From: a virus
Length of the DNA stretch: 22,682 bases
Virus record (IMG/VR): IMGVR_UViG_3300031688_000142
Coordinates: 1-22,682 of that record
Strand: one strand, 5' to 3'
Shown here: positions 11,332-22,151 of the stretch, in pieces
Position numbering within the stretch: position 1 is the first letter of the stretch
How the letters are laid out: the number at the start of each line of letters is the position of its first letter
The notes under the pieces: model-generated
Databases searched by the model: none
What the model saw: only the letters and a program-made list of their open reading frames with translations
What the model was told of the DNA's origin: nothing
Position numbers and translations under genes: made by a program

Positions 11332-12405
11332 ATGAAGATAGGAACGGATTTTAGTGGAATAGGTTCACCTGAGAGTGCATTGAAAAGGTTAGGTTTAGAT
11401 ATAGATGAGGTTTTTGCTTGTGAGATTGACAAGTTTGCAAGAGCTTCGTTTAATGAGTTGCATAATCCTACTACAATGTATGAGGATATAACGACAAGGA
11501 ATCACTCAGAAGTGCCTCAGTTAGATTTGTATGTAGCAGGTTTCCCTTGCCAGTCATTTAGTTTAGCAGGTAAGCGTGGAGGGTTTGAAGATACAAGAGG
11601 AACTCTATTTTTTAATGTAGCTGAGTTTATAAAAGAGAATCAACCTAAGTGCTTTGTACTGGAGAATGTAAAAGGATTACTTTCACACGACAACGGAAGA
11701 ACATATCAAACCATTACAGATGTGCTAACGAATGGGGGTGGTACTTTAAACGGACAGATAGGTTTAGATTCCATAGATAATGGATTAGGGTATCATGTGT
11801 ACGCTCAAGTGTTAAACTCTAAGGATTACGGTATACCACAAAATAGAGAGAGAATATTTATAGTAGGGTTTAAAGAATTTAGAGAGTTACGATTCCCTAA
11901 GAAGATGGAGTTAAAGTTGAGGTTAAAGGATTTACTAGAGAAGGAAGTAGATGAGAAATATTATTTGAGTGATAAAAAAATAGCCTTTCTGAAAAGAGCA
12001 GAAGGTACAACATTCAATATAAATAAAGATTTATTAAAAAAAGAACTAAATGATTTATCCAGAACAATAACTAGTAGCTACTACAAGGCAGGTAGGACAG
12101 AACAATACATCTCTCACTCACTTTACCCAAGAAGCTCTAAGACAGGTAAGGGGGGTTCTGGTCATTTATCTAAAGCAGATGGCACAAGTTATTGTGTAGA
12201 TACTGGTTGTTCGCAAGGGGTTGAAGTAAATAAAAGAATAAGAAGATTAACACCTTTAGAGTGTTGGAGATTACAAGGATATACTGATGAGCAATTTAAC
12301 AAAGCTCAGAAAGTAAACTCAGATACTCAGTTATATAAACAAGCAGGTAACTCTATAACCGTTGATGTGATGGTAGAATTATTTAAAAAGATATACGACA
12401 TCTAA
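11332..12405 (+). CDS. DNA (cytosine-5) methyltransferase
   Basis: A complete 357-aa C5-MTase that transfers a methyl group from S-adenosylmethionine to cytosine C5. Motifs in order: I DFSGIGS (6-12), IV FPCQSF with catalytic Cys73, VI ENV (111-113), VIII QNRER (170-174), variable target-recognition region (about 185-300), IX RRLTPLECWRLQGY (304-317) and X AGNSI (338-342). No restriction endonuclease partner is beside it, so it probably protects phage DNA from host restriction, or mimics a host pattern. The recognition region is more A-rich than the flanking coding sequence, as expected for a swapped specificity segment. The target sequence cannot be deduced. Confidence 0.9.
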   Translation: MKIGTDFSGIGSPESALKRLGLDIDEVFACEIDKFARASFNELHNPTTMYEDITTRNHSEVPQLDLYVAGFPCQSFSLAGKRGGFEDTRGTLFFNVAEFIKENQPKCFVLENVKGLLSHDNGRTYQTITDVLTNGGGTLNGQIGLDSIDNGLGYHVYAQVLNSKDYGIPQNRERIFIVGFKEFRELRFPKKMELKLRLKDLLEKEVDEKYYLSDKKIAFLKRAEGTTFNINKDLLKKELNDLSRTITSSYYKAGRTEQYISHSLYPRSSKTGKGGSGHLSKADGTSYCVDTGCSQGVEVNKRIRRLTPLECWRLQGYTDEQFNKAQKVNSDTQLYKQAGNSITVDVMVELFKKIYDI

Positions 12406-13584: not shown

Positions 13585-13592
13585 ATTAGTTT

Positions 13593-13600
13593 TATATTTG
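13593..13600 (+). promoter_or_regulatory. Bacteroidota -7 box TATATTTG upstream of structured leader
   Basis: TATATTTG lies 9 nt after the VRR-NUC stop; transcription is expected near 13606, so the transcript would begin with the structured region and run into the Mom-like gene. No good TTTG at the -33 position. Confidence 0.6.
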
Positions 13601-13605
13601 CCTCA

Positions 13606-13765
13606 GTGAGTAAGCTACTTGAACGCTACACTAAAGCCCTATCGAAACCTAACAAGGTTTAATTTCAACACGATAGGCAGAGTTAAACCTTTGGGGTTTA
13701 AAAGTCAGTGTTGGGAAGGCAAGGGATTTCCTTCCCAACTATGAACTAACTAAAACACGACTAAG
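13606..13765 (+). ncRNA. Structured, possibly bistable leader RNA before the Mom-like gene
   Basis: 160 nt without an ORF hold several helices. An outer helix CCTATCG (13638-13644) / CGATAGG (13671-13677) encloses AAACCT / AGGTTT with loop AACA (13645-13660). A second hairpin is TTAAACC / GGTTTAA (13683-13701). A third is a perfect 10-bp stem GTTGGGAAGG / CCTTCCCAAC (13710-13739) that ends 26 nt before the start codon. AGGTTTAA (13655-13662) is also exactly complementary to TTAAACCT (13683-13690); that 8-bp pairing would break the first two hairpins. No T tract follows, so translation control or a stable RNA is more likely than termination. Confidence 0.55.
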
Positions 13766-14695
13766 ATGGAGGTTTTAAAAATAAAAAATTACGAGTGTAA
13801 AGATTGGCTTTTAAATAAACATTATGCTAAAAGGTTGTGTAGTATATCTTATGCGTTCGGGTTATATATAGATAAAGTACTAAGTGGTGTTGTAACGTTT
13901 GGTATGCCCCCTAGTGTTAATCTTGCTGAAAGTATTTGTGGGGTAGATATGAAAAATAAAGTGTTAGAATTAAATAGATTAGTAGTAAATGAGGGTTTAC
14001 CTAAAAACACTCTATCTTTTTTTGTTTCAAATGCAATAAATAAACTAACTAATAATAAAATAATAGTTTCTTTTGCTGACGCTAATATGTTTCACAATGG
14101 TTATATTTACCAAGCAACAAATTTCGTGTACACTGGGTTAAGTTCAAATACCACCAAATTAGTAGATAAAAACGGTGAAGAGTTCCATTTTAGAAATATA
14201 GGTCATTATCAAAAAAATAACAAATTAAATGTGAATTTAATAAAGAGAAGATTAAACGAAGAAAGTATAGATAAAAAACAAATAGCTGAATTTTTACGAG
14301 AGAATAAAAAAGGGATTAGCAATAAAGAATTAGAGAAAATAATTAAGGTAAATAAAACAACTATTGAGCATTGGTTTAGGTTAGATTCAGGATTTAGTTT
14401 CCCAACTATAGAACATTGGATTGAATTACAGAAAGCTTTATCGTTTGATGACACACATAATGATAAAATGATTGCTTTTGAAATGATTGCAGATTCCAAC
14501 GAAATAATAAATAAGTTAGAATTAAAAAAAGTTAATATATTACCAAAGCACAGGTATGTTTACTTTAAAGGAAGTAAAACATTTAAACAGAAGTGTTATA
14601 ATAACTTAAAGCTAAACATAACCAACTACCCTAAAGGAGAAAACAAAAGATACATAAATGTATATAAACCGAAAGTTCAGGGGGTTTTATTTTAA
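13766..14695 (+). CDS. Mom-like DNA modification enzyme with inserted helix-turn-helix
   Basis: A 309-aa protein. Residues 1-125 match the GNAT-fold Mom family, which makes a bulky N6-adenine modification in phage Mu: HYAKR (19-23), YAFGLY...SGVVTFG, ELNRL (68-72), then NTLSFFVSNAINKL and SFADANMFHNGYIYQATNF (102-120). The family's C-terminal signature KHRYVYFKGSK...YPKGENKRY is present at 251-286. Between them sits an extra domain (about 155-235), KKQIAEFLRENKKGISNKEL..., KTTIEHWFRLDSG, SFPTIEHWIELQKALSFDDT, which reads as a helix-turn-helix. The inserted HTH may set target specificity. The gene is distinctly AT-rich against its neighbours. It follows a structured leader RNA and an AACTAAAACACGACTAAGATG start context. 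Confidence 0.7.
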   Translation: MEVLKIKNYECKDWLLNKHYAKRLCSISYAFGLYIDKVLSGVVTFGMPPSVNLAESICGVDMKNKVLELNRLVVNEGLPKNTLSFFVSNAINKLTNNKIIVSFADANMFHNGYIYQATNFVYTGLSSNTTKLVDKNGEEFHFRNIGHYQKNNKLNVNLIKRRLNEESIDKKQIAEFLRENKKGISNKELEKIIKVNKTTIEHWFRLDSGFSFPTIEHWIELQKALSFDDTHNDKMIAFEMIADSNEIINKLELKKVNILPKHRYVYFKGSKTFKQKCYNNLKLNITNYPKGENKRYINVYKPKVQGVLF

Positions 14696-15168: not shown

Positions 15169-15203
15169 GGGGGTGAAGGGTCATAGCTTCACCCCCTTTT
15201 TTT
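15169..15203 (+). terminator. Perfect Rho-independent terminator
   Basis: GGGGGTGAAG / CTTCACCCCC, a 10-bp perfect stem around the 8-nt loop GGTCATAG, followed directly by T7. The strongest terminator in the window. Confidence 0.95.
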
Positions 15204-16696: not shown

Positions 16697-16753
16697 ATGG
16701 GTTTATTCGGTGCTATAATATTCAGCATTACATTAATACTATTAACGACATGA
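16697..16753 (+). CDS. Possible 18-aa hydrophobic peptide between ParB-like and MTase genes
   Basis: MGLFGAIIFSITLILLTT, all hydrophobic, ending in ATGA overlap with the MTase start at 16750. The frame is also open upstream to GTG 16661 (30 codons), overlapping the ParB-like gene. A coupling peptide or micro membrane protein; real translation is uncertain. Confidence 0.25.
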   Translation: MGLFGAIIFSITLILLTT

Positions 16754-17496
16754 TTGAATTACATAAAGGAGATTGCTTACAAGTTATGAAGGGTATTCCT
16801 TCAGGTAGTGTAGATGCAATCATTACAGACCCACCGTACGGAACAACTGCGTGTAAGTGGGATTCAGTTATAGACTTTACTTTAATGTGGGAACAACTGA
16901 ATAGAATCATTAAACCGAACGGTGCTATTGTATTATTTGGAAGTGAACCTTTTAGTTCTGCTTTACGCATGAGTAACATAAAAAATTATAAGTACGATTG
17001 GAAGTGGGATAAAGTAAACTCTGGAAGCTTTGCAGTTGCTAAATATAGACCATTAACAGTTTTTGAAGATATTATTATTTTTGGTAAAGGCAGAATTAAT
17101 TATTACCCTATAATGGAATTAGCAGAAGATAAAAATAAACGACCAAGAAACGGAGAATATAAGCGTAAAAAAGATAATAGTAATGGAATGGGAAGTGGAG
17201 TATTTAAAAGCTCAAAAAAACATAATGAAAATTTAAGGTTTCCTAAAAACAGGCTTGTATATAATAAAAATAAAGGAGAATTAAACGCTATAAATAGAAT
17301 ACACCCAACACAAAAACCAGTATCACTTATGGAGTACTTAATTAAAACCTACACCAACGAAAATGAAACTGTTTTAGATTTTACAATGGGTTCAGGTAGT
17401 ACAGGAGTAGCAGCAAAGAATACCAACAGAAGCTTCATAGGTATTGAACAAGATGAGAAGTACTTCAATATAGCGAAGGATAGAATCAATGCGTAA
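16750..17496 (+). CDS. DNA amino-methyltransferase (N6-adenine or N4-cytosine), DPPY type
   Basis: A 248-aa beta-class amino-MTase: catalytic motif IV DPPYGTTACKWDSV near the N-terminus (DPPY 27-30), then the target-recognition segment (about 95-185), and the S-adenosylmethionine-binding motif I near the C-terminus (VLDFTMGSGSTG, 208-219, preceded by HPTQKPV). DPPY usually means N6-adenine, and GTTACKWDS is a common variant in phages. The recognition segment (17040-17340) is more A-rich than its flanks. It is coupled to the HNH gene by an 8-nt overlap and preceded by a ParB-like gene, so the three form a module. No classical restriction partner is seen. Confidence 0.85.
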   Translation: MIELHKGDCLQVMKGIPSGSVDAIITDPPYGTTACKWDSVIDFTLMWEQLNRIIKPNGAIVLFGSEPFSSALRMSNIKNYKYDWKWDKVNSGSFAVAKYRPLTVFEDIIIFGKGRINYYPIMELAEDKNKRPRNGEYKRKKDNSNGMGSGVFKSSKKHNENLRFPKNRLVYNKNKGELNAINRIHPTQKPVSLMEYLIKTYTNENETVLDFTMGSGSTGVAAKNTNRSFIGIEQDEKYFNIAKDRINA

Positions 17497-21280: not shown

Positions 21281-21393
21281 TGAGTTTATGTAGTGAGGAT
21301 ATACTTAAACTAGATGAAGCTACAAAGATAAGTATAGAACAAGCGTTTACGTTTATGAGTTACAAACAGGATCAAGACAAGATAAAGAAATGA
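21169..21393 (+). CDS. Tail assembly chaperone, frameshift extension (T-like)
   Basis: A 74-codon open frame shifted by -1 against 20678-21280, overlapping it by 112 nt. It has no ATG near its start and is preceded by the slippery T9, so it should be read only as a fusion (164 + 74 = about 238 aa). Residues after the join include FGKKWGWYSILMSLCSEDILKLDEATKISIEQAFTFMSYKQD, a pattern (KWGWY ... l..gDi.k.de.......f.fl.Y..dk) known from C-terminal parts of tail chaperone-type proteins of Bacteroidota phages. Its stop overlaps the MTase start (ATGA). Confidence 0.65.
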   Translation: MDYRKRLLERFANLFSGGSGDVKQQNFGKKWGWYSILMSLCSEDILKLDEATKISIEQAFTFMSYKQDQDKIKK

Positions 21394-22151
21394 TAAAGTT
21401 AAACGAAGTAAGGAACGAGAATTGTCTAGACACGATGGGGTTGATGGAAGATAACTTTATTGATTTAACAGTTACCTCTCCACCTTACGACAATTTAAGA
21501 GACTACAACGGTTATTCTTTTGATTTTGAAAGTATAGCTAAAGAGTTATACAGAGTAACTAAGGTGGGAGGTGTGCTTGTTTGGATTGTAAGTGATGCTA
21601 CTGTAAAAGGAAGTGAGACAGGCACAAGTTTTAAGCAAGCATTATTCTTTAAGGAATGTGGCTTTAATTTAAACGACACCATGATATGGAATAAGGGTAG
21701 TTTTTCAGCCGTAGGTTCTCTCAAATCTAGATATGCTCCTGTATTCGAATACATGTTTATTCTAAGCAAAGGTAAAGCTAAGTCATTTAATCCTATCAAG
21801 GATAGAAAAAATAAGTGGGCAGGGGAGAAACGAAAGCATGTAATGTTTAGGCAAGCTAATGGTACTATAAAACAGACTAGCGGATCTGAAATTAAGGAAT
21901 TTGGGCAAAGGTTTAATATATGGAATTTGCCTCCATCAAAGAATAGGAGTATAAATCACCCTGCTACCTTTCCCGAGCAATTAGCAAATGATCATATAAT
22001 AAGCTGGAGCAACGAGGGTGATTTGGTTTATGATTGCTTTGCTGGAAGTGGCACAACTGCTAAAATGTCTATACTAAATAATAGAAACTACTTAGCTAGC
22101 GAAATGAGTGAGGAGTATTGTGAAATAATAAAAGAAAGAATCAAGAAATGA
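21390..22151 (+). CDS. DNA amino-methyltransferase (SPPY type) inside the tail operon
   Basis: A 253-aa beta-class MTase: TSPPYDNLRDY near the N-terminus (SPPY 30-33), target-recognition segment (about 115-180), then FPEQLAND...VYDCFAGSGTTAKMS (motif I, 215-223). SPPY is typical of N4-cytosine enzymes, though adenine specificity occurs. It is joined by ATGA overlaps to the chaperone extension on one side and to the next virion gene on the other, so it is an insertion adapted to the operon. Without a nearby nuclease it probably protects late progeny DNA. Target unknown. Confidence 0.85.
   Translation: MIKLNEVRNENCLDTMGLMEDNFIDLTVTSPPYDNLRDYNGYSFDFESIAKELYRVTKVGGVLVWIVSDATVKGSETGTSFKQALFFKECGFNLNDTMIWNKGSFSAVGSLKSRYAPVFEYMFILSKGKAKSFNPIKDRKNKWAGEKRKHVMFRQANGTIKQTSGSEIKEFGQRFNIWNLPPSKNRSINHPATFPEQLANDHIISWSNEGDLVYDCFAGSGTTAKMSILNNRNYLASEMSEEYCEIIKERIKK

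Follow-up and report, generated by a model that had tools for sequence, protein, structure and literature searches.

A phage Mom-family enzyme with an inserted methyltransferase-type helix-turn-helix cassette that probably aims its chemistry at DNA sequence

The DNA described here, called the window throughout, is the whole 22,682-base stretch of an IMG/VR virus record described as a marine phage. An ORF on the plus strand (13766-14695) starts with ATG and encodes a complete protein of 309 amino acids followed by a stop codon. An earlier note, made from the letters of this DNA, had read the product as a Mom-like enzyme whose GNAT-like core is separated from a C-terminal signature by a helix-turn-helix (HTH), and all motifs named for it are present in the ORF: HYAKR, ELNRL, SFADA, GYIYQATNF, WFRLDSG, LSFDDT, KHRYVYF, and YPKGENKRY. 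The gene and its parts are as follows.

13766..14695, plus strand: complete Mom-family gene, 309 aa (PF25680, E=3.7e-34; phrog_1384, E=4.6e-55)
13766..14140, plus strand: GNAT catalytic core, residues 1-125 (8bv8 alignment; S84 and D105 invariant; VIA-align Z 19.1)
14141..14224, plus strand: SSNTT..DKNGEEFHFRNIGHYQKNN segment, residues 126-153, retained in an HTH-free sister class
14225..14542, plus strand: inserted cassette, residues 154-259, about 106 aa, missing in relatives of 206-212 aa (predicted alone by AlphaFold2, pLDDT 94.1)
14273..14473, plus strand: residues 170-236, bundle of HTH helices predicted by AlphaFold2
14369..14404, plus strand: HWFRLDSGFSFP signature, residues 202-213, common to phage DNA methyltransferases (pattern scan)
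14543..14692, plus strand: residues 260-309, with net charge +11: KHRYVYF, the final strand of the GNAT fold, and the basic YPKGENKRY tail

The gene is preceded by a 180-base spacer (13585-13765) in which inverted repeats are visible by eye (AAACCTTTGGGGTTT and GGGAAGG...CCTTCCC); an Rfam search and a terminator scan return nothing for the spacer. On the downstream side of the mom region, a strong hairpin followed by a run of T at 15169-15196 resembles an intrinsic terminator. The window encodes three further DNA methyltransferases, one C5 and two amino-type (11332-12405, 16750-17496, and 21390-22151), and the phage is therefore rich in DNA-modification genes. It is likely a phage of Flavobacteriia, because its terminase is closest to those of Flavobacterium phage 11b (55%) and Cellulophaga phage phi10:1. 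The Mom gene recurs unchanged in two further viral contigs (L001 and L002). No record of an isolated phage or plasmid matches more than 80% of the Mom protein, narrow patterns for the cassette and for the core find no relatives among genome contigs, and an NCBIfam search of the protein returns no family.

The gene is AT-rich, from which recent transfer had been proposed. Its GC content is 27.1% vs 34.8% for the window, the lowest among the 27 listed ORFs; its third-position GC of 22.6% is not the lowest among them. The same trait runs through the family: 49 of 50 HTH-bearing Mom genes and 85 of 95 HTH-free ones are AT-richer than their own contigs. Therefore, recent transfer does not follow from base composition, and we reject the argument.

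By sequence and by predicted structure, the protein is a Mom-family GNAT enzyme with conserved catalytic residues, as had been proposed. The Pfam Mom family PF25680 covers residues 2-169 with 118.6 bits, against a curated cut-off of 27.1, and PHROG 1384 is annotated 'Mom-like DNA modification protein'. The sequence of the Mu Mom crystal (8bv8) matches residues 12-159 (E 1.2e-9). Comparison with the Mu Mom structure, which the earlier note had suggested as a check, gives a VIA-align Z of 19.1 for the predicted model, with an rmsd of 3.0 over 189 residues; the next chain reaches Z 12.4. The title of 8bv8 describes an inactive S124A mutant, and the mutated alanine is aligned to S84 of the window protein. 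D105, the aspartate of SFAD, is aligned to the corresponding motif of Mu Mom. S84 and D105 are both invariant in an alignment of 43 homologues. Counting along the alignment, we take D105 to be equivalent to D149 of Mu Mom, presumably a known catalytic residue.

The cassette is delimited by relatives that do not have it. In an alignment of seven homologues there is one gap: three proteins of 206-212 aa are without window residues ~157-258, keep the core and the KHRY...YPKG end, and are otherwise aligned end to end. A sister class of 236 aa (L073, L076, and L088) is without ~77 residues and keeps the EFHFRN segment; its core identity to the HTH-bearing L044 reaches 73%. Close Moms without the HTH thus provide natural with/without pairs. 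The division of core and C-terminal signature by an insert, as first read, is borne out by this gap. The separateness of the signature is not, for VIA-align matches the KHRYVYF strand (residues 262-268) to both Mu Mom and other GNAT folds, and the strand belongs to the fold. The HTH therefore sits inside the fold: as judged from the alignments and the model, the cassette is inserted just ahead of the last strand. Against Mu Mom, the aligned span of the model runs to its residue 290, whereas generic GNATs stop near 269.

The lengths of the variable region are discrete among 152 distinct Mom ORFs, with 35-60 residues in HTH-free proteins and 140 or 255 in HTH-bearing ones. Moms of 423-424 aa (L059:2430-3701, L061, L063, and L064-L067) have an extra domain of ~115 residues between the core and the HTH. 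It is YunG-like (PF24585, E=7.8e-5, under the cut-off), and relatives of it are found in Caulobacter, Synechococcus, and Myxococcus phages. A first tree that included truncated ORFs gave 8 changes of gain or loss of the HTH. On a core tree of complete ORFs from which long branches were removed, the minimum falls to 3 changes, and a single HTH-bearing clade is not rejected (AU p=0.14). We therefore dropped repeated independent gain, and the HTH-bearing Moms may form a single clade on the core tree.

Structure prediction, named in the earlier note as a check on the HTH, returns such a fold. AlphaFold2 with 43 homologues models the whole protein with a pLDDT of 90.5 and places five helices within residues 170-236 (170-181, 186-193, 197-203, 215-225, and 229-236). 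Predicted alone (pLDDT 94.1), the cassette is a five-helix Cro/CI-type (XRE) HTH domain with flanking strands. The placement of the HTH relative to the active site is modelled with moderate confidence (pTM 0.74). The closest solved folds are 3ivp (Z 7.3), C.AhdI (1y7y, 6.6), lambda cI (1rio, 6.6), and P22 c2 (2r1j, 6.2), so that DNA-binding repressors and restriction-modification (R-M) controller proteins are among its nearest Cro/CI-type structures. Taken alone, a Z of 6-7 would be modest for a domain built of helices; by sequence, too, HTH_3 of Pfam leads the HTH families, below threshold (17.9 bits vs a gathering score of 23, E=0.003). A sequence search with the cassette against solved structures finds no significant relative. 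A Pfam NADAR match over the HTH (E 0.003-0.009) is below the cut-off and was taken as chance. The cassette is under purifying selection, with a dN/dS of about 0.15-0.4. The predicted fold and the insert-free relatives together uphold the reading of an inserted HTH.

The cassette is not confined to Mom. When the insert alone is compared with isolated phages by tblastn, 18 records match, the great majority annotated as DNA methylase or methyltransferase. A structure search with the isolated cassette gives the same picture, the named matches with E below 0.01 being DNA methyltransferases. The residues HWFR, D, FS, and W are invariant across the Mom and methyltransferase modules, and 30 Mom inserts align with four methyltransferase modules in hhalign with a probability of 99 (E 7.7e-18). 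In motif-sampled viral contigs, nearly all protein-length ORFs among the matches listed are a recognisable DNA methyltransferase or Mom; three pattern-scan matches under 50 residues look like chance. Pfam C5 methylase matches cover 26 of the 36 aligned module-bearing ORFs. Of nine listed ORFs that the classification rules left unassigned, 8 match methyltransferase families in PHROGs; for the other, L221, the sole match is a family without known function, although its module aligns with the rest.

In C5 methyltransferases, the module lies between the catalytic PCQ and motif IX (LTPxExxRLQ), the usual position of target recognition. This holds for 26 of 26 listed C5 proteins with both motif sets, and among the matches listed there is no C5 protein with the module ahead of PCQ. 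A motif-VIII-like element is found upstream of the module by regular expression in 18 of these 26. In the C5 enzymes of AP013541 and Bacillus phage CM1, the recognition position is taken by a homologous HTH of the HWFRxDxxFSxP form. In beta-class (N4/N6) enzymes, such as P0004, P0006, P0011, L228, and that of Staphylococcus phage Alsa_2, the module separates the (D/S)PPY half from the half with the glycine-rich SAM motif. The closest bridge from methyltransferases to Mom, among the matches listed and as judged by BLASTP, is L228, a complete beta-class enzyme of 457 aa. Its module is of the GYKDTAAHWFRTDxGFSFP type, as in the Mom version, and is 59% identical to a Mom module over 83 aa (E 1e-27, 97 bits); other methyltransferase modules among the matches listed score 69 bits or less.

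It is thus well supported from sequence that the Mom HTH is a homologue of modules in the target-recognition domain (TRD) position of both C5 and beta-class methyltransferases, two unrelated classes. The proposal that it is a methyltransferase-type target-recognition module stands for homology and position; sequence-specific modification by Mom would be a further step, taken up below. The window's own three methyltransferases were ruled out as donors of the HTH, since their sequences have no HWFR motif or HTH module. In Staphylococcus phage Alsa_2 (L014:2762-4570), an HTH-free Mom directly adjoins a module-bearing beta-class methyltransferase, a plausible setting for cassette transfer. Four contigs (L131, L155, L236, and L240) have small ORFs that start with the HTH module and are without an N-terminal methyltransferase half; these are possibly split methyltransferases.

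Cores and cassettes do not always share one history. Between the Moms of L004 and L006, synonymous differences amount to 49/72 (68%) in the core vs 11/79 (14%) in the module and C-terminus (Fisher p=7e-12), which points to recombination with a breakpoint near the start of the module. As judged from these synonymous sites, the cassette has recombined independently of the core in at least this one pair. Two other pairs differ within the HTH itself. L003 and L059 share 88% amino acid identity in the core, 44% in helices 1-3, 96% from helix 4 to the end of the module, and 96% in the C-terminus; L025 and L064 share 93% in the core, 96% in the tail, and 48% in helices 1-3. The differences in the HTH half are mostly non-synonymous in both pairs, and therefore replacement or fast divergence are both possible. 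Across 50 HTH-bearing Moms, the similarity of helices 1-3 is hardly coupled to that of the core (Spearman 0.19). Two or three Mom genes lie adjacent or close together in six contigs (L055, L030, L049, L271, L050, and L316), five of which combine HTH-bearing and HTH-free copies. The tandem Moms resemble one another in core and tail, with variable segments that are unrelated; two copies in L055 are 98% identical over their final 60 nt.

We consider it quite probable, from the homologies and the predicted fold, that phage Mom has taken up a methyltransferase-type HTH cassette that aims its chemistry at DNA sequence. The mechanism would be the following. The variable slot of Mom would be a site for alternative target-recognition segments, filled by an HTH in this lineage. 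In cis, the HTH would recognise a short stretch of DNA sequence, and its binding would position the GNAT active site at an adenine in that place. The group added is presumably methylcarbamoyl or a related one, and the modification would shield phage DNA from restriction. Exchange of the cassette would then lead to modification of different sites. A wider version, which we put forward tentatively and lean slightly against, is that phages at large draw on one pool of HTH cassettes for C5 enzymes, amino-methyltransferases, and Moms; a given target could then receive a methyl or a bulky Mom-type mark when the cassette moves from one enzyme to another, and tandem Moms in one phage would serve several targets.

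The main rival, itself rather unlikely, is that the HTH provides non-specific or weakly specific DNA affinity and increases the efficiency of modification without choosing sites. The precedent from the literature is M.EcoGII, a phage-encoded, non-site-specific enzyme whose TRD is a four-helix bundle with an HTH (PMC11551740). The strongly basic tail of Mom (+11) would also suit an enzyme that merely holds on to DNA. Affinity alone, however, fits less well than a change of target with the divergence of helices 1-3 beside a near-identical remainder (44% vs 96% in L003/L059), and it sits poorly with the fact that many C5 enzymes and amino-methyltransferases carry the same module where their TRD belongs.

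That position also counts against a regulatory role, in which the enzyme would carry the HTH as a fused autorepressor, in the manner of methyltransferases that repress their own promoter through an N-terminal HTH. Such fusions are known (PMC12707154), and R-M controller proteins are among the nearest solved structures; but the regulatory HTHs are N-terminal whereas that of Mom lies within the fold, its homologues occupy the TRD position in two methyltransferase classes, and a promoter and terminator scan with an Rfam search identified no upstream operator. We regard this reading as very improbable. Least credible of all is an insert for protein interaction or structure that makes no contact with DNA: XRE-like folds are indeed known from non-DNA-binding enzymes, and cyanase and HppE are among the structural neighbours, but the sampled homologues of the cassette sit in DNA-modifying enzymes.

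The preferred reading, an HTH that directs Mom to sequence, differs from known systems in what it combines. Mu Mom shares the GNAT fold (S124 corresponding to S84, and the SFAD aspartate), but its chain is just 232 residues long, and by sequence the match stops at about the start of the cassette; the fold of the window Mom is interrupted there by the ~106-residue HTH. The phage C5 enzymes share the HTH, but they methylate cytosine with a Rossmann fold whereas the window Mom has an acyltransferase-type GNAT core; beta-class enzymes, also unlike it, carry out SAM-dependent methylation. In Helicobacter pylori R-M systems, recognition domains move within and between genes and specificity changes (PMC3983042). 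That movement is among methyltransferase genes, whereas the Mom cassette is shared between methyltransferases and an enzyme unrelated to them in fold and chemistry. Fusions of Mom domains to nucleases have been reported (PMC7824862). The open-access abstracts and passages searched contain no report of an HTH-bearing Mom; an earlier description elsewhere is possible.

Movement of TRDs among R-M genes is thus already known, and what is described here is a cassette common to DNA-modifying enzymes that are related neither in fold nor in chemistry. This suggests that phages fit a single recognition module to enzymes that differ in their chemistry. If the cassette sets specificity, Mom modification would be re-targetable by swapping about 100 residues, and a cassette-to-motif code could be learned from the methyltransferases, whose motifs map easily. 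The natural with/without pairs and the tandem paralogues make the site choice of Mom directly testable.
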